Positions 40 through 19,033 of a DNA stretch of 22,598 nucleotides are shown piece by piece. The translations under genes and the position numbers were made by a program. Numbering within the stretch: the stretch's first letter is position 1; every line of letters begins with the position of its first letter. This DNA is from a virus. The notes under the pieces are model-generated. The model saw only the letters and a list, made by a program, of their open reading frames with translations. It was not told the DNA's origin and did no database searches. The stretch lies in IMG/VR virus record IMGVR_UViG_3300031773_000042, positions 1 through 22,598 of that record. One strand, 5' to 3'.

Positions 40-978
40 TTATTTCTTTGAAAATAAACTTTTTTTCTTAGTTTTATTGTAAGTATTTTGCTTTTTACTG
101 AACAATCCTTGTGCAACTTTTGCCGGTTTGGATTTTTCTTTTAATTCAGCTCTATTCTTTTTATAATTTTTATCTATTTTTTTAGTTACATCTTTAACTT
201 TATAAAGTTTAAAATTTGGCTTATTTAAGTCAACTTTAACTCTTTTGATAGTATATGCATCACCACGATCATTATCTTTCTTATTTACAGGTTTTTGACG
301 CAACCAAACTATCCATCTTTCCTCAACTTTAAGATCAGTATTAGTTTGAATAACATTAGCATAATCAGATAATTGAATTGTATATTTATTTAAATTTGTA
401 TTATACATATTAGAAAAATCTCCCGATAATTTCTTATTACCATATACTTCATTTATATTTCTTTTATTTGTTTTCCAATCAAATATTACTAAGTTTCCAG
501 TATCTTTATTTAATAACAATCCATCAACTGTTCCTGCATGTAATGTAGATTCATCATAAACTCTTAATTCTAAAAACAACACAACATAATTATCAGGTAA
601 CCATTCATAAAAGTCAAGAACTGCTTGTTCTCTCCAATCTATAGGATAATCAAAATTAGGAAAACATTCTGAAAATAAATGAACTCTAGTTCCCATTATG
701 GATGCTTCACTTCCAATTAATTTCCAACGTTGTCTATAATATAGTCCTGTACGTTTATCATTTGCATTTTCTTTTAACTTTTTTCTACCTTTGGCTTCTG
801 ATGCATGGTATGAATTAAAAGCTTCTGAAAAACGTTTTAAATAAGTTGTTGTGCTAATTAATTGTTTTCCGTTTAATGTATAAGTATGTGTTTCTTCATC
901 AAAAGATAACCCTGAAAACGTTTTATTAATTTTATTTCTTAATTTATTAGTTTTAGGAGAATCACAAAAATTTTTCAT
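40..978 (-). CDS. RecB/Cas4-like PD-(D/E)XK exonuclease
   Basis: A 312-residue protein with the motif series of RecB/Cas4-type nucleases. GTRVH ends at H100, followed by E104. LELRV contains E137. AGTVD gives D152. FDWKT gives D167 and K169, the D-x-K active site. QLSDY gives the Q-x3-Y helix motif (Q202, Y206). The family degrades or resects DNA with a divalent metal, and phage versions serve recombination or replication; the exact role here is inferred. The N-terminal stretch (GLSFDEETHTYTLNGKQL) is usual for phage members. The C-terminal 50 residues are very lysine-rich, and the pentapeptide LFSKK occurs twice (292-296 and 308-312, the latter the extreme C-terminus). The gene lies beyond a terminator from the structural operon, so it probably belongs to a separately transcribed DNA-metabolism unit. 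No iron-sulfur cysteine cluster of the Cas4 kind is evident. Confidence 0.85.
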   Translation of the reverse strand: MKNFCDSPKTNKLRNKINKTFSGLSFDEETHTYTLNGKQLISTTTYLKRFSEAFNSYHASEAKGRKKLKENANDKRTGLYYRQRWKLIGSEASIMGTRVHLFSECFPNFDYPIDWREQAVLDFYEWLPDNYVVLFLELRVYDESTLHAGTVDGLLLNKDTGNLVIFDWKTNKRNINEVYGNKKLSGDFSNMYNTNLNKYTIQLSDYANVIQTNTDLKVEERWIVWLRQKPVNKKDNDRGDAYTIKRVKVDLNKPNFKLYKVKDVTKKIDKNYKKNRAELKEKSKPAKVAQGLFSKKQNTYNKTKKKSLFSKK

Positions 979-980
979 AT

Positions 981-1104
981 AGTTAATTAGTTAGTTAATA
1001 ATGTTGTAATATACTCATAATTATTAACTAAACGGTCATAATAAATGAAAAAGCCTCTATTTTACTAGAGGCTGTGAAAATAAAATTATAACTAACTAAC
1101 TAAA
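981..1104. repeat. Inverted repeat of TAAC/GTTA units flanking the terminator
   Basis: The plus strand reads agttaattagttagtta at 981-997 and taactaactaactaaat at about 1089-1105. These arms are inverted complements (15 of 17 positions) and enclose about 90 bases that include the intrinsic terminator. The left arm lies directly before the nuclease start codon. The rest of the 979-1168 gap is AT-rich with no convincing gene. A promoter for the nuclease must lie here if it is separately transcribed, but no element could be assigned with confidence. Confidence 0.6.
1049..1074 (-). terminator. Intrinsic terminator ending the late structural operon
   Basis: A perfect 8-bp stem (agcctcta at 1053-1060, tagaggct at 1067-1074) has a 6-base loop. 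Read on the minus strand it is followed by a run of four T (1052-1049), then C and more A/T. On the plus strand no T run follows, so it works for leftward transcription. It falls after the last small gene of the structural operon and before the nuclease gene. It is the only GC-containing stem-loop with a T tract noticed in the window. Confidence 0.8.
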
Positions 1105-1168
1105 TATTTTCATTTAAATTATTACTATTTTTAATCTTCAATTTTAGTAATTATTTATTTTCAAATAT

Positions 1169-1273
1169 TTATTTATTTTTATTACACTTGTCCTTAAGTT
1201 TTTTAATTCTTTTCTTCTGTTTTTCAATAAATTCTTCAAGAATTTTATTGTGATCTACTTCTTGTTTTAACAT
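1169..1273 (-). CDS. Possible 34-residue lysine-rich small protein
   Basis: A short frame starts at ATG 1273, 11 bases after the stop of the holin-like gene, and ends at TAA 1169. It encodes a helical, highly charged peptide (begins MLKQEVDHNKILEEF, ends CNKNK) with a heptad-like pattern. It fills most of the space before the terminator. No function is recognised. Its place in the operon and clean start favour a gene, but a length of 34 codons in AT-rich, lysine-biased DNA can arise by chance. Confidence 0.4.
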   Translation of the reverse strand: MLKQEVDHNKILEEFIEKQKKRIKKLKDKCNKNK

Positions 1274-1284
1274 AATATTAAATT

Positions 1285-1317
1285 TTAGTCTAATAATCTA
1301 AATTTATTATTAATAAG
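1285..1317. repeat. 33-base direct repeat, copy A (3' end of the holin-like gene)
   Basis: This 33-base stretch matches 3438-3470 at 31 of 33 positions in the same orientation. Copy A encodes the last residues LINNKFRLLD plus stop of the holin-like protein. Copy B would encode LINNKFRFLD plus stop. One difference is silent (AAT/AAC) and the other is L to F. Confidence 0.85.
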
Positions 1318-1587
1318 CTGGTGTATAGATTCTATTGCAACAACAGCTCCATTTAAACTTTCCTGGGTTTCTAAGTCACGCTCTCTTGTGTATTTATTAA
1401 GTTCCCTTAATTCTACTGTATGACGTTCAATAAGCCCTTTAATTTCTTTTTGACACTCTTGCCTCTCTATTCTTAATAAAGCTTTTTCTTCTTTATACAT
1501 TTTAAGAAGTTGCCAAATTGCTAAACCACAGCCGATAATTAAGGGAGATTGCTCGGCAAAACGCTGCATTAATAATGTAAAATCCAT
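1285..1587 (-). CDS. Holin-like small membrane protein
   Basis: A 100-residue protein. A short N-terminal region is followed by one hydrophobic segment at about residues 14-29 (SPLIIGCGLAIWQLLK). A long charged helical region then runs to the end, rich in E, K and R and probably coiled coil. The layout of one N-terminal membrane span plus a charged cytoplasmic helix resembles BhlA/UviB-type holin-like proteins, which permeabilise the inner membrane at lysis. That is a layout argument, not a sequence match. It is near the end of the structural operon, where lysis genes often lie, but no endolysin is visible in the window. The last codons (LINNKFRLLD and stop) are duplicated as DNA at 3438-3470. 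Confidence 0.55.
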   Translation of the reverse strand: MDFTLLMQRFAEQSPLIIGCGLAIWQLLKMYKEEKALLRIERQECQKEIKGLIERHTVELRELNKYTRERDLETQESLNGAVVAIESIHQLINNKFRLLD

Positions 1588-1622
1588 TAATATGTTTAGT
1601 TTTTTATATTTTTAAATATTAT

Positions 1623-2171
1623 TTAATATTCAATACTCATGACCGCTATAATTGCGTCTTTTAATGTTATTGTAATTGTTATTTCGTTTATTGCGTTTAT
1701 AGATATTAAATATCTATTATTGTATACTTCTTGATGTTTAACAAGTGCTGATCCTACAAAATTAGTAACGTCTGTTGAATTTTCAAAAAATAATACCGTC
1801 CCATTATTCCCTAAAAACTCAAAAGGATATGTAAAGTTATCTTTGAAAATCATCATAGAATTATAGTAGCTAAATTGAGTTCTTGATATATTAAAAGTAT
1901 TACCTGAATCTAATGGATACTCAAAAACGTTAATAAGATTCTTATCATCTTCTTTTTGTATCTGCTCTATTCTAAGGTTTTTAGTTACTTGTAATATACT
2001 ATTAGATATGTCAGTAGTTAAACTATCTTCATAGCTTTCTATGTTGGTATTATTAATATAGTCTTTAGCTATATAATAATTTGTATCCTTAGTAACCATT
2101 TCACCTAAGAAATAAGTTCCTTCTATAAGAGGAATAATCTGAACAGAGTAATTTTCGCTATTGTAATTCAT
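1623..2171 (-). CDS. Hypothetical tail-module protein, 182 residues
   Basis: No family is recognised. The sequence has no signal peptide or clear membrane span and looks mostly beta-structured, with many alternating hydrophobic residues. It ends in a strand-rich stretch (about 150-182, including SINAINEITITITLKDAI). The start codon overlaps the stop of the preceding fibre gene by one base (TAATG), so the two are probably translationally coupled. Its place after a fibre gene and before the holin-like gene suggests a fibre accessory, a receptor-binding tip, or a fibre-assembly helper. This is inference from position only. Confidence 0.75.
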   Translation of the reverse strand: MNYNSENYSVQIIPLIEGTYFLGEMVTKDTNYYIAKDYINNTNIESYEDSLTTDISNSILQVTKNLRIEQIQKEDDKNLINVFEYPLDSGNTFNISRTQFSYYNSMMIFKDNFTYPFEFLGNNGTVLFFENSTDVTNFVGSALVKHQEVYNNRYLISINAINEITITITLKDAIIAVMSIEY

Positions 2172-3223
2172 TATCTTCTATTTTGTAAACTAACTAATAC
2201 AGAGCTAGGAAAACTAGGATTACTACCACTATTCTCTATGGCTTGCCCTATTGTACCCGATTGAGCAAATGCTGCCCCAATAACATCACCTGCTCCTGCC
2301 GTATTAGGATATACATTATAACCTATTGTTATGGCAGCACTATAGTCAACATAGTATATACCAAAGTGATGCACTGCTACATATGTCTCATTTGGATTGC
2401 CTGTTGCTGCACCCCTTCTTGTAACAACACCTTGAGTAACATTTCTCTCTCCCGTTGATGATATATAATTTAAAACAGGAAACTCAACACCGCCAATAGT
2501 TGCAGCAGTTGTAGTTATAAATACTACCTTTTGTACAGCAACTGTTTGCACAGTAGTATCTTCTACACATATGTTCATTGCCACACTGATCCACAAATCA
2601 TATCCGCTATTATATGTCTCTATTAATCCTTGTCTTTTATTAAATACTTGAAAATTATTTGTAGGACTTGGGTAAGCTGCATCTCTTGCTATAGCATCAT
2701 CTACCATTGGCGTACTAGCTAAAAAATTAGCTACATCTGTACTTCTTAAAGTTCCACTATTTTCTAGTAAAACTTTCATTCCTGCAATAGGTGTTATACT
2801 AGCGTAATTTGTTATAAGTTGAGGTTGTGCTTGAATTTCTATTTCATCAGTACCTTCTGTAATATCAAAATCTGCAGATGATAAACTTCTAAATTCTAAA
2901 TCAACGCCTGTCTTTTGCTTGAAGACTCCAGCACCACCACCAACATTACTAGCTGTATTTACTTCTCCAGAACCTGGAGGAGCAGGCGTAGTTACATATA
3001 GTATAGAATCTGCTTTAGACTGTAAGTTATCATTTATTTTAATTAATATCTTGTCATTCTGTATTGCATCTGCTAATGAGTTTGCAGAAGATATTTGATC
3101 AAAAGTAAAATTATTAGTGACAATAAAATCTCCACCATATGATACATTTATATTTAATTCTTTTATAAATATATTTTCATATGGTTTAGACACATTAATT
3201 AATGTAACTGTGGCATTACTCAT
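2171..3223 (-). CDS. Phage tail fibre / receptor-binding protein
   Basis: A 350-residue protein. Residues about 90-130 carry a motif recurrent in tail fibres and virion appendages of many phages (NVGGGAGVFKQKTGVDLEF then RSL), preceded by a short Pro/Gly linker (TPAPPGSGEVNTASN). The C-terminal 150 residues are beta-rich, with long Thr/Val/Ala-rich strands, and probably form the receptor-binding tip. Its ATG is embedded in the stop of the 50-residue membrane ORF (ATGA), and its own stop overlaps the next start. The role is adhesion at the tail or capsid surface. The fibre call is firm at the level of motif and context, while the receptor and exact site are unknown. Confidence 0.7.
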   Translation of the reverse strand: MSNATVTLINVSKPYENIFIKELNINVSYGGDFIVTNNFTFDQISSANSLADAIQNDKILIKINDNLQSKADSILYVTTPAPPGSGEVNTASNVGGGAGVFKQKTGVDLEFRSLSSADFDITEGTDEIEIQAQPQLITNYASITPIAGMKVLLENSGTLRSTDVANFLASTPMVDDAIARDAAYPSPTNNFQVFNKRQGLIETYNSGYDLWISVAMNICVEDTTVQTVAVQKVVFITTTAATIGGVEFPVLNYISSTGERNVTQGVVTRRGAATGNPNETYVAVHHFGIYYVDYSAAITIGYNVYPNTAGAGDVIGAAFAQSGTIGQAIENSGSNPSFPSSVLVSLQNRR

Positions 3224-3372
3224 TTAAAATATCTTTTGTAAAACAAAGTTAGCGCTGCAACAACTCCAAAATTACTAATTATTTTTATAATAGAATCTAT
3301 TGCAGTAATATCTGTCCCTGTAAATAATAATCCTCCTGTAGCTAAAAAATCTGCAATATCTAAATTAAACAT
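3220..3372 (-). CDS. Small membrane protein, 50 residues
   Basis: The frame starts at ATG 3372 and ends with TGA at 3220-3222. That stop overlaps the ATG of the fibre gene as ATGA, a classic coupling arrangement that argues for real translation. The peptide begins MFNLDIADFLATGGLLF, has a hydrophobic span at about residues 27-45 (including IIKIISNFGVVAALTLF), and ends in a basic tail (YKRYFK). The layout suits an inner-membrane protein with its C-terminus in the cytoplasm, so it could be holin-like or a lysis accessory. No named family is recognised. It is easily missed because it is only 50 codons long. Confidence 0.65.
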   Translation of the reverse strand: MFNLDIADFLATGGLLFTGTDITAIDSIIKIISNFGVVAALTLFYKRYFK

Positions 3373-3437
3373 ATTATATTTTTTTCGATTTTTTTAATCT
3401 TTTTATCAAGAGTAAATTTATTTAATTTTTAAATTCA

Positions 3438-3470
3438 TTAGTCTAAAAATCTAAATTTGTTATTAATAAG
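3438..3470. repeat. 33-base direct repeat, copy B (relic of the holin-like gene end)
   Basis: This segment matches the 3' end of the holin-like gene at 31 of 33 bases and begins a few bases after the stop of the tailspike gene. It has no start codon or open frame of its own. The remaining 3373-3475 gap is A/T-rich with no other gene seen. It is best read as a leftover of a duplication or recombination event in the fibre/lysis region. Confidence 0.8.
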
Positions 3471-3475
3471 GGTTG

Positions 3476-5035
3476 TTAAAATTGATATCCATTTAATACA
3501 AATTCTCTTACTAAAATATCCTTAGGGGTAGAAGTTCCTCCCGTATTAAAGGATTCAAATTCTACATCAAATACATCTCCAAAGGTAGCTTGACCTATAA
3601 CACTGAATGTAAAAGATTGTGCCCTACCTTGTCTTATTTCGGGATAACCTATTGCATAAGGAATAGCTGTTCCATTAGAACGCAACCTACAAGCTATAAA
3701 TCCATCACCCGACATTTCAACTGTCGCTGTAACAACTACCATGAAATTTGCATCTACCTTTGAGTCATAAGTAAGTGAGCAATTTGCAGCACTTGTTATC
3801 ACCCTCGTAACAAGAGGAAATGTTGGTGTATTTGTAAAAGCACCTGTTGTTACATTAGCTGCCGCTAAAACTTGAGGGTTTGTAGTTCCTGTGTCTAAAT
3901 CATTTAAGTTTCCTACAATAGACAGAGTTGCCTTAGCATTTCCATTACCAATACCTTGATTGGCTTGAATAATTGTAGTGTTCTGAATGTCATAATCAAT
4001 ACTTGTAACAGCACCGGTTGTCAACCCTACATCTATACCTGTATTTGCAGATATAGTTCCAAAACCTATTGTTGTAGTATTATCTATTTTTATTCCGTCT
4101 TGTGTTTGTTGAGGATGAAATAAACAACCTGAAATATTAACTGCTCCAAAACCATTACCTGCACCATTAGGGCGTAATTCTATAAGAGGAGTTAATGCCC
4201 ACCCACTTGGCGTAGGAATACTTGTTTCATCAAACCACCTTACAAACTCGCAACTTGATAACTGAAGTTTAGAATTATTTTGGAAATGACACCCCATTAC
4301 AGTAGCTTGAACATACCAAACTAAAGTGTTTTGAATATCTACCAAATCAAACCCTTCAATATGCCAAACATCATAGCAATTCCTAAATTGGCAGTTGACA
4401 ATAGTAAGTACCTTATCTCTGCCATCATTAAACCCTACACCGTAATTATGGTTGTCTGCTCTTAATACAACCTCTCCTCCTGTGACATTTGTAGAAGAAA
4501 ACTTTAAATTTGAAAACTCACAGTTGACATTATCAACTGTTATGAAATCACCTCCACTACTTGTGTATGTTAAACCATCTTTGTCTCTATCCCAACCAAG
4601 AATGGCTATGTTATCCCCATTTATTAACAGTCTATTAGAACAATTAACATTACCCCTAATAAAATAAGTTGTGTTAGCTGCTAATGTAATAACACTCCCT
4701 ACGGCAGTTCCAAAATCTGATTCTTGAGCAATCTCTACTACATTTACACCATTAATTGTAGGAGTAAATACTCCTCCAAACCCACTGGCAGTATAATTAG
4801 GATGAAGTGTAAATGTCTTTGCTAATGTATCAGTTATTAATATTTCTTCTGTAGTTCCAGGATCACGTAATTTCCAAGAATTAGCGTTTGAAGTTTGTGT
4901 ATTCCATACAAAGTTGCCACCCGTAGAATCTATCTCAGGGTTGGAAGTTGCATCAAATTGTATTTCAGAATCAACTTTTAATATAGAACCTTTTAACCAG
5001 TGTCCTGCTGTTTTTAATATCGTTCTTAATCCCAT
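3476..5035 (-). CDS. Tailspike-like protein with probable parallel beta-helix
   Basis: A 519-residue protein. A short N-terminal part (1-60) probably anchors it to the virion. The central region (about 110-370) has the texture of a right-handed parallel beta-helix: repeated short strands with Asn/Cys/Ser ladders, such as VDNVNCEFSNLKFSS, LTIVNCQFRNCYDVW, LQLSSCEFVRW and AVNISGCLFHP, spaced about 20-25 residues apart. The C-terminal 120 residues look like a beta-sandwich. Phage tailspikes with this fold bind and often cleave surface polysaccharide; no catalytic residues can be named here. It starts 11 bases downstream of the stop of the 88-residue gene. The fold is judged from pattern, not from a search. 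Confidence 0.7.
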   Translation of the reverse strand: MGLRTILKTAGHWLKGSILKVDSEIQFDATSNPEIDSTGGNFVWNTQTSNANSWKLRDPGTTEEILITDTLAKTFTLHPNYTASGFGGVFTPTINGVNVVEIAQESDFGTAVGSVITLAANTTYFIRGNVNCSNRLLINGDNIAILGWDRDKDGLTYTSSGGDFITVDNVNCEFSNLKFSSTNVTGGEVVLRADNHNYGVGFNDGRDKVLTIVNCQFRNCYDVWHIEGFDLVDIQNTLVWYVQATVMGCHFQNNSKLQLSSCEFVRWFDETSIPTPSGWALTPLIELRPNGAGNGFGAVNISGCLFHPQQTQDGIKIDNTTTIGFGTISANTGIDVGLTTGAVTSIDYDIQNTTIIQANQGIGNGNAKATLSIVGNLNDLDTGTTNPQVLAAANVTTGAFTNTPTFPLVTRVITSAANCSLTYDSKVDANFMVVVTATVEMSGDGFIACRLRSNGTAIPYAIGYPEIRQGRAQSFTFSVIGQATFGDVFDVEFESFNTGGTSTPKDILVREFVLNGYQF

Positions 5036-5046
5036 TGTTTTTTATT

Positions 5047-5313
5047 TTATACTATAAATGGATCGTTCCATTCTTCTGTTAACATTATTGCCATCATTTC
5101 TTCATATGTATATGGACCTTCTTTTGTTATTAAATCATCAAGAAAGTCTGGAGGATTACCGTGCTTCCACTTTACAAATGCTTTAGTTTGATCTACCGAC
5201 CTTCTAACATCTTCTGTTTCATAAACCTGAGAAAAATCTATTTTTGATAATTCACTAATATTGAATATGATAGAATCTCTATTTTCATAACTATGTGACA
5301 TCGTATCTACCAT
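5047..5313 (-). CDS. Small phage protein between lectin and spike genes, 88 residues
   Basis: The gene overlaps the end of the LamG-like gene. From ATG 5313 the overlap is 23 bases. A second ATG at 5301 (MSHSYENRD) would cut it to 11 bases and is an equally good start. The protein is acidic and has the pattern RRSVDQTKAFVKW followed by PYTYEEMMAIMLTEEW, which resembles small proteins I associate with phage fibre loci. It may help fibre folding or attachment, but no function is established. There is no signal peptide or membrane span. Confidence 0.65.
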   Translation of the reverse strand: MVDTMSHSYENRDSIIFNISELSKIDFSQVYETEDVRRSVDQTKAFVKWKHGNPPDFLDDLITKEGPYTYEEMMAIMLTEEWNDPFIV

Positions 5314-6130
5314 TTAATGTGTTAATATTCTGTGTTACTTCTTCTTGTGTTAACACTCTATCATATACTAATGTTTGATAAGTTGTTCCAGGAAATTGAA
5401 ATAACGGTACTGTTCCTGTTCCTATCCACCCATTAAGTGCAACTTTCATAGATGTAGTTTGAAATGTATTTGTTAAAGCTCCATAACTTATAACTATTAC
5501 ATTACTTTGCAGTTTGCCATCAATGTAAAATGTTGGTCTATCTAGCCCATCGTTTGTATTTATAGAGCCATCAAAACAAATAGTTAAATTATGTATTTTA
5601 TTTGCCTCTATAATATCTCCATCACTTCTTACAAGTCTTGTTTGTGGGAATCCACCAATAAGACCTGGGGATGTGTAAGGAATATGTTCTATTCTTATTC
5701 CTCCATAGCTTTCTGCTGTAATGTTTCTTACTAACATAAGGAGCTGCCTGTTGTTTCCGGAACCAAATTTTGAAAAGAAAGTATATGGAACATCGTCTGC
5801 TAATGTATCAAACTTTATCCAAGTTTGAATTGTATAAGTAGGACTTGTCCCTCCTATTACTCCATTAAGTATGTTCCCTAAGTCAATAGTATCATCTAAA
5901 CCATCAAAAGCTACTCCCCCACCTTTATCTGTAGTATAAGAAGTACCATTAAGCATAGTGCCATCATAGTTGTTACCTGTAAGGTCACTCCATGTGTTAT
6001 TACCTCCTGCTAACGATGAACTATAAAAACCATCTAAATTTAAAACAAGTCCACTTGTGACTAATCCAAAGGGTAATTTTTGTCCTTTTAGATACTTTAA
6101 ATTTTTTACATTTATATTCTTAATTATCAT
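5291..6130 (-). CDS. LamG/concanavalin-like lectin domain virion protein
   Basis: A 279-residue protein dominated by a LamG-type jelly roll. Landmarks are LVLNLDG (28-34), TWSDLTGN (46-53), GGVAFDGLDDTIDLG (71-85), the central YTIQTWIKF strand, the FYIDGKLQ hairpin, and the family-typical ending VYDRVLTQEEVTQNINTLNGRY (split here as VYDRVLTQEEV, about 255-265, then TQNINTLNGRY). Such domains bind carbohydrate, so host glycan recognition is the likely role. The first 20 residues (IIKNINVKNLKYLKGQKLP) may attach it to the virion. Its start overlaps the stop of the upstream fibre gene as ATGA. Its stop is TAG, evidence against TAG recoding. Confidence 0.85.
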   Translation of the reverse strand: MIIKNINVKNLKYLKGQKLPFGLVTSGLVLNLDGFYSSSLAGGNNTWSDLTGNNYDGTMLNGTSYTTDKGGGVAFDGLDDTIDLGNILNGVIGGTSPTYTIQTWIKFDTLADDVPYTFFSKFGSGNNRQLLMLVRNITAESYGGIRIEHIPYTSPGLIGGFPQTRLVRSDGDIIEANKIHNLTICFDGSINTNDGLDRPTFYIDGKLQSNVIVISYGALTNTFQTTSMKVALNGWIGTGTVPLFQFPGTTYQTLVYDRVLTQEEVTQNINTLNGRYDVT

Positions 6131-7558: not shown

Positions 7559-7777
7559 TTATATTTTGTATGATATTGTATTATCAGTTGAGTTTTTATA
7601 TAATTGACCGGTAGTTATTCCTGCAGTGCCTGCAGCTGCGTCGTCTACATATTCAGGTAAAGCTTGTAATAATTGAAGTACAAAAGTATGCACTGCAACT
7701 GGATTATCCATAAGTATTTTGGACTTTGCTCCTGTTACTGCTGTTCTTCTGTCGATAAATAATTTGTTACTTGACAT
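7559..7777 (-). CDS. Small paralogue of the fibre N-terminal anchor, 72 residues
   Basis: Residues 5-33 (KLFIDRRTAVTGAKSKIL, then MDNPVAVHTFV) align without gaps to residues 11-39 of the neighbouring large fibre (EYFIDKRVFVTGRKSVL, then SLDNPFNLTAFV). Shared positions include FID, VTG, KS, DNP and FV. The large protein continues into a long fibre, whereas this one stops soon after with AGITTGQLYKNSTDNTISYKI. It could be a short adaptor occupying the same attachment site, a chaperone, or a relic of a duplicated fibre. The 47 bases before it are almost pure A/T. Confidence 0.7.
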   Translation of the reverse strand: MSSNKLFIDRRTAVTGAKSKILMDNPVAVHTFVLQLLQALPEYVDDAAAGTAGITTGQLYKNSTDNTISYKI

Positions 7778-7824
7778 AATTTTGAATTTTAATATTATTA
7801 ATATTTTATTATTATTTTATTATT

Positions 7825-9681
7825 TTAAAAATTTGATATAATAAACCATTCAGTTCCATTACTTATAACTGTGATTGCATTATATTGTGAATTCAATGGT
7901 TGATCATTTACACCGTCTATTGTCTCAACTCCATTACCTAATACATGAACAACTCCTGCACCAGGATCAATTTTTTTAATAGTTATTTGTTGATTTGGTC
8001 TTGCTGCTAATGGTAATGTTATATCTTTATCTGTTGCACCAGTAGTTACTAAAACAACTTCTTTATGATTTGCTGTATAATTTATTGCAGTACTAACAAC
8101 ATTTATAGAATCTTCCCAATTAATATTATTTCCTCCATCATTAACAAGGCCCTGACCTGCAAGACCATCTGCTGTTGGGAAATTATAAGAATAAACAGGA
8201 ACCTTAGAATTTCCAAATTTAACTCCATTAGTCTCTTGTAACTGTATGTACATTGCATTTCCGACAGCATCACTAGACTCTAAATATACTTGTGAATCAC
8301 TTACTGTAACAGAACCTCTTTGTGTACCTACTTCATTTGATATGAGTATACTAGTATCAAAAAGAACAAATCTTTCAAGATCTTGACTAGGAATAGTCTG
8401 ATACATTATAGGTTGAGGAGGATATGATGCAAGTACAGCATTCAATGCTGTTGAAGGAATAAGTCCACTGCCCCCACTTAAAGTATGAGATACACCTGTA
8501 GAAAGTGGACCCCATCCTGATCCTAAATAATATGTTACTGTAGCTGTGTTTGAAGGATTTGCTAAATTCCAATTTATTACTAGTTGTTCTATTGTGTTTA
8601 CTCCATCAGTAGTTATTACTATTGAATTTCCTATTGTACCATAATTATCTGCAATTATTTCAAATGAAAATCCAACTGCAGGATTAACTATTCCTGTAGT
8701 AGCCTGTGTTCCTGTTGTAGAGATATTAGAAATAATTCCTGGTCCATATGAAGGATTTGTTCCTATTCCTAAACTTAAATTAGTATCTGCAACTGTTCCA
8801 CTTTCTTTTACTTCCCATAAACCTGCATTTGCTACTTCTAAATTTTCACTTGACCCTATTCCTGCACCTCCAAGTTTAACTGTTCCTGCAGGTGATTCTG
8901 TAAGTCCTAAACCTACATTTAATAAACCACTTGGAGTTTGCCATTCACATTCCCCAGTACCTGCTACTACAGCAGTTAATATATCACCAACCTGACTACC
9001 TGCTACACCCGGAGTTTTAATAAGTATAGCATTATCCGCTGATAATGTTAAATTATTTAATGATGATAATGTTATATCATTTGTATCACTAACTTGAAAA
9101 GTAGAAAACTCTTCAAAAGTAATACTATATAATTCTCCATCTCCCCCTATTGATCTATTAGTAGCTACGGTGCCATCTGCTGTATATATATTATTAAGCA
9201 TTGCTGCACTTGGATCAGCCCATTCACATGTTCCACCTGTAACAGGCCCTGCAGATGATTGTAAAGTTAATATTTGTCCAGCTGTACCAGTAGAAGCTAC
9301 AATACTAGGAGTAATTAATTTTACTGTTGAGTCTCCTCGTAGTAATAAAGTTTGTGCAGATCTTATGGCTATAGTCTCTGCATATTGAGTAAACCAAAAA
9401 TCTCCTGTAAAGTCTAAATCTACAGTATCAAATGCAAATTGATGCCCTCCCCCTGTAACTGTAGTACCATGTAATAATGTACCACCTAATTCTGTACAAT
9501 TAGTTTGTGTTCCAGTTATAGGATCTAATGCTGTTTGAATATTTAATCCATTTTGAGCACAAGAAACACCCATTAATGAAATTTGACTATTCACAAAAGC
9601 AGTTAGATTAAACGGGTTATCTAAAGAAAGAACAGATTTTCTTCCTGTTACAAATACACGTTTATCTATAAAATACTCCAT
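7825..9681 (-). CDS. Large modular tail fibre protein
   Basis: From ATG 9681 the protein has 618 residues. A longer frame opens at 9708, but the 9681 start is preferred. It follows the upstream stop by 7 bases rather than overlapping it, and alignment with the 72-residue paralogue begins there (MEYFIDKRVFVTGRKS). Counted from 9708, residues 132-165 and 229-260 hold two related segments, each with a GQILT or GDILT strand and a CEW motif (GGTCEW, GECEW). Residues about 345-413 are a module shared with the 414-residue protein. The last 100 residues resemble a common fibre C-terminal domain (DITLPLAARPNQQITIKK, then the VETIDGVNDQPLN and EWFIISNF strands). The role is an adhesin or structural fibre. 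Confidence 0.75.
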   Translation of the reverse strand: MEYFIDKRVFVTGRKSVLSLDNPFNLTAFVNSQISLMGVSCAQNGLNIQTALDPITGTQTNCTELGGTLLHGTTVTGGGHQFAFDTVDLDFTGDFWFTQYAETIAIRSAQTLLLRGDSTVKLITPSIVASTGTAGQILTLQSSAGPVTGGTCEWADPSAAMLNNIYTADGTVATNRSIGGDGELYSITFEEFSTFQVSDTNDITLSSLNNLTLSADNAILIKTPGVAGSQVGDILTAVVAGTGECEWQTPSGLLNVGLGLTESPAGTVKLGGAGIGSSENLEVANAGLWEVKESGTVADTNLSLGIGTNPSYGPGIISNISTTGTQATTGIVNPAVGFSFEIIADNYGTIGNSIVITTDGVNTIEQLVINWNLANPSNTATVTYYLGSGWGPLSTGVSHTLSGGSGLIPSTALNAVLASYPPQPIMYQTIPSQDLERFVLFDTSILISNEVGTQRGSVTVSDSQVYLESSDAVGNAMYIQLQETNGVKFGNSKVPVYSYNFPTADGLAGQGLVNDGGNNINWEDSINVVSTAINYTANHKEVVLVTTGATDKDITLPLAARPNQQITIKKIDPGAGVVHVLGNGVETIDGVNDQPLNSQYNAITVISNGTEWFIISNF

Positions 9682-9688
9682 AGTTAAT

Positions 9689-9928
9689 TTAACACCCTCT
9701 ACAGGCACTAGAATAGTTAGTTAATAGTAATTGTCTATATTTATTAAGATCGTTAATAACAGCACCATTTAAAGAACAGTTAACGATATTGTCTTCAATT
9801 GTAATAAATCGTTTAACTGTATTAATATCACTTAGTAATACTTCCATATTACAATTATATCCATATAATATCCTTGATGCATATTGGGATAATTGTTTAA
9901 CAAAATGACATTTTAAATCTGGATCCAT
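9689..9928 (-). CDS. Small cysteine-rich protein, 79 residues
   Basis: It starts one base after the TAA of the 414-residue gene, so it is probably coupled to it. The protein is soluble-looking and helical, with five cysteines (C7, C26, C51, C76, C79) and a terminal CRGC. The order LKC, then L-Y-x-x-x-C, then C, then a terminal CxxC parallels the C-terminal 90 residues of the neighbouring 414-residue protein, so it may be a detached copy of that domain. The cysteines could bind zinc or form disulfides in the finished virion. No named family is recognised. Confidence 0.65.
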   Translation of the reverse strand: MDPDLKCHFVKQLSQYASRILYGYNCNMEVLLSDINTVKRFITIEDNIVNCSLNGAVINDLNKYRQLLLTNYSSACRGC

Positions 9929-17389: not shown

Positions 17390-17464
17390 GTGTAATTTAC
17401 GTAATTTAGTTATTAATAAGTTATATTTTATTTATTTATATTTTAATAGTTGTCATAATTAAGC

Positions 17465-19033
17465 CTATACACTTAATTTTTTACCATCAAATATTATATC
17501 TTTTATTGATAATAATGATTTTGCAACTGTTGATGCATTAATTAAAGAGTCAATAAGAACCGAAGATGGATCGTATACTCTATATTTAGCATTAGATAAT
17601 TTGTATAATTTATTATCCCTTAAGTCTAATGCAAAACCATCAGTTAATTTTTCTTTATATGTTTCATAGTTATCAAACAGATCTGCATTAACTAATAATT
17701 GTTTAAAGGGTTCACTTAATGAATCAATAATTAATTGACAACCTGGTTCAAAGCATAATTCTTTTTTACATCTTTTATTTAATGTATTTTGACAGTTTAA
17801 ATAAGTAGAACCACCACCTACATTAACACCTTGTTTAATAGCTGATTCTACTGCTAATACTGCATCATCAAGTCTATCCTTTAATTCTTTCATCTCCATG
17901 TGAGTTCTTCCCCCTACATGTATAACTGCAACTCCCCCTGTTAAATTAGCTAATCTTTTTTTATGAAATTTACGATCTACTTTTGTTATAAGTGTTTCAT
18001 CACTATTATCATCATCTGATAGTATTTCTTTAATGTCATAAATTATGTCTTCAATTAATTCCTCATCGTTATTACCATCTAAGATAGAAGTATACCATTC
18101 GTCTACTTTTACTTGTTTAGCAAATCCTAGATTACGAGGATCAAAATCATCCTGTGCTCCTATAACATAAGATGAAGTTAATGCAGCCAAATCATTCATT
18201 AATAAATGCTTTCTATCTCCATGTCCATCATTAGTAACAAAACAAATAGGATTACCTGTAGCACCCATAAACTTTTCTATTTGAGTAAGAGTAATATCAG
18301 TGATATCCTCACAAAATACTACAAGAGGTTTCCCCATTAAATGTTTAATATATTGATCAATATCAGTTACGGCTTGAATAACATCGTCAATAATAAGAAT
18401 GTGACAATCATCTGCTTTAAAACACATTTCGCGAGTATCGTTAACCATAAAGTTTTCAATCCAACCTTTATGTAATTTCATACCTTTTGTTTTGTTAACA
18501 CGTGTTTCTGAGTATTGACTTTCCTTAACTTCGATATCACCATATAAACCAATATCATCAATTATAGAATAAATGAATTCACCAAGCTTTTCATCATTGG
18601 ATGAAATAGATGCTATTTCTTTTAATAGTTCTTTATTGTTTTCAATTTTAATTGAATCATAATTTACATAATCAACAACATTTTGAACAGCTTTATCAAT
18701 CTGTTTACTTAATTCATAATAACTTAACCCGTTATCAATTAATTTAAGTCCCTCAGTAAGAATATACTGTGCCAATATCATTGTTGTAGTGGTGCCGTCA
18801 CCACTTGATTTCATGGTTTTTAACGATGCTTCTCTTAATACAGTAATAACCATATTCTCATAATCATCAGCTGACATTATATGTCTTGCAACAGTAACAC
18901 CATCTTTTGTTATATGTGTTCTATTGTTTTCATCATTAAATAAAATTGTTCTACCTTTAGTACCTAATGTTTGTTTGACGGTATTAGCAAGGGTATTAAC
19001 CCCATGTAAAATAATTTCAGTTGTTTTATTCAT
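17465..19033 (-). CDS. groEL-like: GroEL-type (group I) chaperonin
   Basis: A full-length 522-residue Cpn60, slightly shorter than the roughly 548-residue E. coli GroEL. Equatorial ATP-site motifs are present: TLGTKGR (22-28), ITKDGVTVARHI with D44 (GroEL D52), GDGTTTT with D79 (D87), RLDDAV with D390 (D398), VNVGGGS (G406-408) and YDPSSV with D488 (D495). The intermediate and apical domains align throughout, for example GKPLVVFCEDI, GDRKHLLMNDLAALT and LTGGVAVIHVGG. The substrate-binding strand at 190-196 reads GWIENFM where E. coli has GYLSPYF. The C-terminus ends KKLSV and lacks the GGM-rich tail. It lies between portal and scaffold genes, so folding of the capsid or other virion proteins is the likely job. 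No GroES gene is visible. The stop is TAG. Confidence 0.95.
   Translation of the reverse strand: MNKTTEIILHGVNTLANTVKQTLGTKGRTILFNDENNRTHITKDGVTVARHIMSADDYENMVITVLREASLKTMKSSGDGTTTTMILAQYILTEGLKLIDNGLSYYELSKQIDKAVQNVVDYVNYDSIKIENNKELLKEIASISSNDEKLGEFIYSIIDDIGLYGDIEVKESQYSETRVNKTKGMKLHKGWIENFMVNDTREMCFKADDCHILIIDDVIQAVTDIDQYIKHLMGKPLVVFCEDITDITLTQIEKFMGATGNPICFVTNDGHGDRKHLLMNDLAALTSSYVIGAQDDFDPRNLGFAKQVKVDEWYTSILDGNNDEELIEDIIYDIKEILSDDDNSDETLITKVDRKFHKKRLANLTGGVAVIHVGGRTHMEMKELKDRLDDAVLAVESAIKQGVNVGGGSTYLNCQNTLNKRCKKELCFEPGCQLIIDSLSEPFKQLLVNADLFDNYETYKEKLTDGFALDLRDNKLYKLSNAKYRVYDPSSVLIDSLINASTVAKSLLSIKDIIFDGKKLSV

Follow-up and report, generated by a model that had tools for sequence, protein, structure and literature searches.

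The window analyzed here is the full 22,598-nucleotide stretch of the 22.6-kb IMG/VR record IMGVR_UViG_3300031773_000042, which comes from an uncultured crAss-like phage and carries its main genes on the minus strand, running from right to left. It encodes a crAss-type major capsid protein (PF23898, E 2e-34), a portal protein (phrog_6547), and a terminase (phrog_6681), the latter two from PHROG matches, and on these three proteins the phage belongs to the Crassvirales. No DNA resembling the window was found in the phage collection, and the capsid protein matched 53 records there, all at less than 60% identity (20 to 22% among the 20 matches listed). A GroEL-type chaperonin gene (17465-19033, minus strand; PF00118, E 1.8e-43; phrog_5725, E 3.4e-106) lies between the portal and capsid genes.

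Relatives, identified by locus numbers, were taken from IMG/VR: 17 loci through the capsid protein, 17 through the 100-amino-acid (100-aa) gene described below, 8 through the end of the 519-aa gene, and 1 and then a further 40 through the 350-aa fibre, with 38 of the last 40 matching only part of the fibre protein. Several loci are different stretches of the same contig (L005/L041; L006/L044/L069; L040/L067/L068), and some contigs are closely similar (L026/L027; L031 to L033; L036/L037).

Genes of the fibre region

The region of interest (Table 1) holds a putative tailspike gene of 519 codons and a putative fibre gene of 350 codons, names that we base on gene context and sequence character; the structure models of both proteins are of low confidence (pLDDT 41 and 31, respectively). 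Homologues of the 519-aa protein occur in L041 to L048 and N-terminal relatives in L026 and L040, and a comparison of the gene with the phage collection returned none. The 350-aa fibre is 77% identical to its homologue in L044, and its only counterpart in the phage collection is a 39-residue match in Pseudomonas phage Rollin. That match (residues 76 to 114) nearly covers fibre residues 90 to 116, which are also spanned by all 38 partial fibre matches, one of them on a 424-kb contig (L077); fibre residues ~81 to 134 (window positions 2822-2983) resemble a linker of the type GSGEVNTASNVGGGAGVFKQKTGVDLEFRSL. The 50-aa ORF between spike and fibre had no Pfam or PHROG match.

Two further observations concern the genes beyond the spike. 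A 279-aa protein (5291-6130, minus strand) matches the concanavalin-like lectin family PF13385 with an E value of 1.2e-5, just under the curated cutoff, and is a candidate host-binding protein. A 72-aa ORF and a 618/627-aa ORF (7559-9708, minus strand) share a stretch of 48% identity, as tandem tail-gene paralogues do.

Table 1. Positions of genes, repeat copies, and other features in the fibre region of the window
Feature	Position	Strand	Remarks
Terminator-like hairpin	1052..1073	-	Follows the 34-aa ORF
34-aa ORF	1169..1273	-	Pairs with the 100-aa gene in relatives (cluster C2)
100-aa membrane/coiled-coil gene	1285..1587	-	Intact copy, holin position
Copy A	1285..1317	-	3'-terminal 33 nt of the 100-aa gene, encoding LINNKFRLLD stop
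182-aa gene	1623..2171	-	Companion of the fibre; its partner in L040 is 57% identical
350-aa fibre gene (putative)	2171..3223	-	N-terminus common to L044; body common to L040 and L044
50-aa membrane-like ORF	3220..3372	-	3' end overlaps the fibre start
AATTTAA	3429..3435	-	Short continuation of the repeat beyond the stop codon, after a 2-nt gap (blastn)
Copy B	3438..3470	-	Probable 3'-end relic of a second 100-aa gene; translation would be LINNKFRFLD stop
AACCCTTA	3467..3474	-	Presumed 5' leader relic of a lost gene; its CTTA is shared with copy B (first 4 nt)
519-aa tailspike-like protein (putative)	3476..5035	-	N-terminus MGLRT...HWLKG; adjoins the cassette on the left

A gene end repeated beside the spike

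The original prediction drew attention to a 33-base direct repeat around these genes, and the repeat holds up: copies A and B, both read on the minus strand, are identical at 31 of 33 bases, with T/C and A/T as the two mismatches (sense strand), and a pattern covering both copies with up to three mismatches found just these 2 sites in the window and 0 in 100 dinucleotide shuffles. The blastn alignment is longer, extending over 42 nt at 90% identity with a 2-nt gap (3429-3470 versus 1278-1317, E 2e-9). It is likewise borne out that copy A ends the gene noted as holin-like, here the 100-aa ORF, and that copy B has no gene of its own, since it begins 5 nt past the stop of the 519-aa ORF and falls inside none of the listed ORFs (those of 40 aa or more). 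The 50-, 350-, and 182-aa ORFs were rightly given as the enclosed genes, but that list omitted the 100-aa gene itself, which is enclosed except for its last 33 nt. A degenerate repeat pattern had 0 matches in the viral contig collection, which possibly does not include the window's own record.

To characterize copy A, we compared 12 homologous 3' ends of the long-form 100-aa gene, 9 of them distinct (the short forms in L034 to L038 and the cut-off L039 were omitted). C-terminal peptides related to that of copy A are found in the 8 other distinct ends, and the pairwise differences at codon positions 1, 2, and 3 number 108, 22, and 184; of the codon differences, 113 are silent and 110 change the residue. 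Given that the DNA of copy A varies freely among homologues, it behaves as part of the gene rather than as a fixed DNA element or binding site, and as copy A sits in an intact gene, we take copy B to be the stray. Copy B differs from the window's copy A at 2 positions and from any relative at 6 or more.

The 100-aa gene in the holin position

Homologues of the 100-aa gene were found at 17 loci. An ORF of 34 to 48 residues follows the gene, belonging to cluster C2 in the window and 10 loci and to cluster C16 in L034 to L038, and in L024 and L025 the order continues from the 100-aa gene through the small ORF to an amidase (endolysin) gene. In L040, the pair of 350- and 182-aa genes is followed instead by a Phage_holin_4_1 gene (PF05105), another ORF, and a related amidase gene. 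These neighbors, together with the holin of L040, place the 100-aa gene in the holin position, from which we infer a role in lysis. The holin family considered for the gene is the BhlA/UviB type. The window's 100-aa protein has no Pfam match and no profile names the gene a holin; the PHROG matches of the family are weak (e.g., phrog_2429 in 3 of 13 members, with a best E value of 0.016). Searches for the gene gave no match in the phage collection, none in 12 of 14 related records, several of which are fragments, and no confirmed case among the 164 stretches that fit its pattern in the genome contig collection. The hairpin after the 34-aa ORF, one of three terminator-like sites in positions 900 to 5200 (1.5 expected), probably closes the operon.

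Opposite ends of the same gene are stranded next to the spike

The bases entering copy B, AACAACCCTTA, contain the motif AACCCTTA, which occurs once in the sense strand of the window, exactly at this point. Across both strands of 469 kb (43 loci plus the window, whose own site is counted), the motif occurs 17 times, and 4 of these sites lie 3 to 4 nt before the ATG of the 100-aa gene (L023, L024, L025, and L039). The two most similar copies of the gene, those of L039 and L023, both carry it there, and it is absent from that spot in the other loci with the gene (4 of 17 loci have it). From the 12 remaining sites we calculated a chance of ~1.3e-4 for the motif to fall within a 10-base stretch; the leader match at copy B is just 8 to 11 nt long. 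A leader that abuts a 3' end and shares CTTA with it is the remnant expected from an internal deletion of a full gene, with CTTA as the presumed microhomology.

A complementary remnant lies in L044, whose contig encodes a capsid protein 97% identical to that of the window. Here, the spike homologue is followed, after 10 bases, by the first 24 nt of the 100-aa gene (matching both L024 and L029 at 22 of 24 positions), located just before the homologous fibre and running into a 12-codon frame that overlaps the fibre's start. The window thus keeps the 3' end and L044 the 5' end, so that opposite ends of the same gene are stranded at the same place. Neither a further stranded 5' end nor any stranded 3' end was found in 43 related loci (446 kb) and the 40 loci fetched with the fibre (277 kb); L069 shows the relic of L044 again, being the same contig. 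The corresponding scan of the window returned copy B alone, and a Markov control of 1.88 Mb under the same limits gave 0 matches for the 5' end and 1 for the 3' end.

Two other candidate relics were rejected. A second 5'-end candidate, in L040, vanished once the true gene starts of L031 to L033 were used. The stretch after copy B scores against the 34-aa ORF at a level that just 9 of 300 random window stretches attain; because 164 of 300 and 159 of 300 shuffles reach that score (under two scoring schemes), we put it down to base composition.

The 100-aa gene marks the edge of a variable fibre region

In several relatives an intact 100-aa gene directly follows a spike-type gene, with gaps of 1 base in L026 and L027, 16 bases in L028, and 14 bases in L023. 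Their spikes are 42% (L026 and L027) and 60% (L028) identical to that of the window, and L023 has just an 80-residue spike fragment, whose relatives are the spikes of L026 and L040. The spike of L028 is the closest among relatives lacking the cassette; closer contigs end at the site. The search among the relatives gave no near-identical genome that lacks the cassette. Five loci (L042, L043, L045, L046, and L047) have other sequence after the spike homologue, and the contig of L041 ends 8 bases past the spike stop.

We then compared 14 distinct contigs, chosen for carrying the 100-aa gene (the near-duplicates L027, L031, L033, and L037 were dropped). Ungapped identity averages 33% over the 100 bases upstream of the gene (13 contigs) and 40% over the nearest 40, and it stands at 77 to 79% at the start codon and 77% over the first 105 bases of the gene. 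The genes upstream, visible in 13 contigs, fall into 7 clusters. In these 14 contigs, a highly variable fibre region borders on the 100-aa gene right at its start codon.

Contig ends cluster around the spike stop beyond what even placement would give (combined p 1.7e-4, 8 loci); the corresponding values are p 0.025 at the 100-aa gene and p 0.83 at the capsid gene, which served as a control (17 loci each). At 6 of the 8 loci (L041, L042, L044, L045, L046, and L047) the contig runs out less than 1 kb from the spike stop. Since the loci are not all independent, this is only suggestive of strain mixtures that differ at the site.

Proposed history of the locus and alternative explanations

We consider it probable, at roughly three chances in four, that an incoming fibre cassette brought along a 100-aa gene of its own and that the older copy was then deleted, leaving copy B as a scar of leader and 3' end. 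The older gene would once have stood directly after the 519-aa spike gene, and the cassette, comprising the 350-aa fibre, its 182-aa partner, and perhaps the 50-aa ORF, would have arrived with a new 100-aa gene behind it, giving the order spike, old gene, fibre, 182-aa gene, new gene. The old copy, now redundant, would afterwards have lost ~275 bp from between its leader (..CCCTTA) and its 3' end (..CTTATTAAT..), probably through joining at the CTTA that these two share, and it would have been cut down differently in the lineages of the window and L044. A donor phage as the source of the cassette, the order of events, and the microhomology route are our inferences from these remnants. Two features that such a history should leave are present, namely, a gene end that is broken or duplicated where the parts join (the window's copy B and the L044 5' relic) and a conserved edge beside differing interior genes in relatives (the 14 contigs carrying the 100-aa gene). 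Against it count the lack of a near-identical pair with and without the cassette, the attribution of the small-ORF trace after copy B to base composition, the shortness of the leader match, the missing 100-aa gene in 12 of the 14 related records, and the five loci in which the spike homologue precedes other sequence.

The closeness of copy B to copy A, at two differences, also fits a duplication inside the window lineage. Template switching within one genome might have copied the 3' end of the 100-aa gene beside the spike, with neither a cassette arriving nor a complete second gene involved, and the fact that copy B differs from A at fewer positions than from any relative speaks for this. Yet such a copying event leaves unexplained both the leader-like AACCCTTA before copy B and the 5' relic of L044 at the same site, and we regard it as unlikely.

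The original prediction saw in the repeat the footprint of a cassette exchange and in the 33 bases a possible site of homologous recombination. The footprint is upheld in that copy B is the stranded end of a gene that follows the spikes in L023 and L026 to L028, with the 5' relic of L044 as its counterpart. The role of the 33 bases as the crossover that brought the cassette in or took one out is not, and is improbable even though the direct repeat brackets the cassette and the clustered contig ends near the spike stop suggest strain mixtures: the bases to the left of copy B resemble a leader, unlike those to the left of copy A, and point instead to an internal deletion. By coordinates, moreover, an A-B recombination would cost the window 2,153 bp, among them ~270 of the 303 nt of its only intact 100-aa gene. 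As most of the sole intact copy would be lost, it is unlikely that the repeat works as a useful switch, and the suggestion that it could still support excision is weak.

It is very improbable that the repeat has a regulatory role, as a promoter or a terminator, and overlaps a gene end by chance. A partial look-alike does lie at 17403-17420 (minus strand), 13 nt upstream of a 376-aa gene, it is present in 3 of 13 related records searched and in L014, and the RNA around copy B has a somewhat more favourable fold than its shuffles (z -2.1, with 6 of 200 shuffles equally good). However, the 18-base core with up to 3 mismatches has 4 matches against 3.1 expected, which is chance level, the look-alike is missing from 10 of the 13 records, including one of 178 kb, the DNA of copy A varies among relatives, and a scan of positions 900 to 5200 found no terminator-like site at copy B. 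The reading of the repeat as a promoter or other DNA element was rejected on the first two of these grounds. Finally, although a pair of direct repeats flanking or close to a putative host-binding gene could recall the attachment sites of a site-specific recombinase or the template and variable repeats of a diversity-generating retroelement (DGR), this is extremely unlikely, as none of 20 window proteins scanned (ORFs 7559-7777, 9689-9928, and 1169-1273 were left out) matches a recombinase or reverse transcriptase and, for the retroelement, base A is involved in just one of the two mismatches between the copies.

Relation to known systems and significance

In phage T4, the holin gene t adjoins gene 38. 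The window resembles such a distal tail fibre locus (genes 37 and 38, then gene t) in that host-recognition genes are swapped as modules, the domains of T4-like gp37/gp38 being often shuffled according to a statement in PMC3797505 that cites Tetart et al. 1998. In contrast to the T4 locus, the trace in the window is a dead copy of a lysis-position gene, and it lies in a crAss-like phage. In zeta crAss-like phages, tail fibre proteins are described in a section of PMC12386605 as DGR diversified, so that these crAss-like phages also vary their tail fibre proteins. There, however, the means is mutation targeted by a reverse transcriptase, whereas the window points to the gain of a module and the decay of a gene, with no such enzyme among the 20 proteins scanned. 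On the favoured reading, copy B is a fresh example of known modular fibre exchange and an ordinary kind of gene-swap scar. In the open-licence PMC literature, we found no report of a pair of opposite relics or of a lysis-position gene as an edge in crAss-like phages.

It is tempting to speculate that fibre cassettes in this group land again and again with the lysis-position gene as their edge, each cassette bringing its own copy so that lysis goes uninterrupted while the outdated copy decays, and that the stranded ends record successive changes of host range; we hold this broader view only tentatively. If the proposed history is true, the locus would be a readable record of an uncultured crAss-like phage gaining a second putative receptor-binding protein, and the 100-aa gene would serve, in contigs carrying it, as a marker for the border of the fibre region, which may help in finding fibre cassettes in fragmentary metagenomic contigs.
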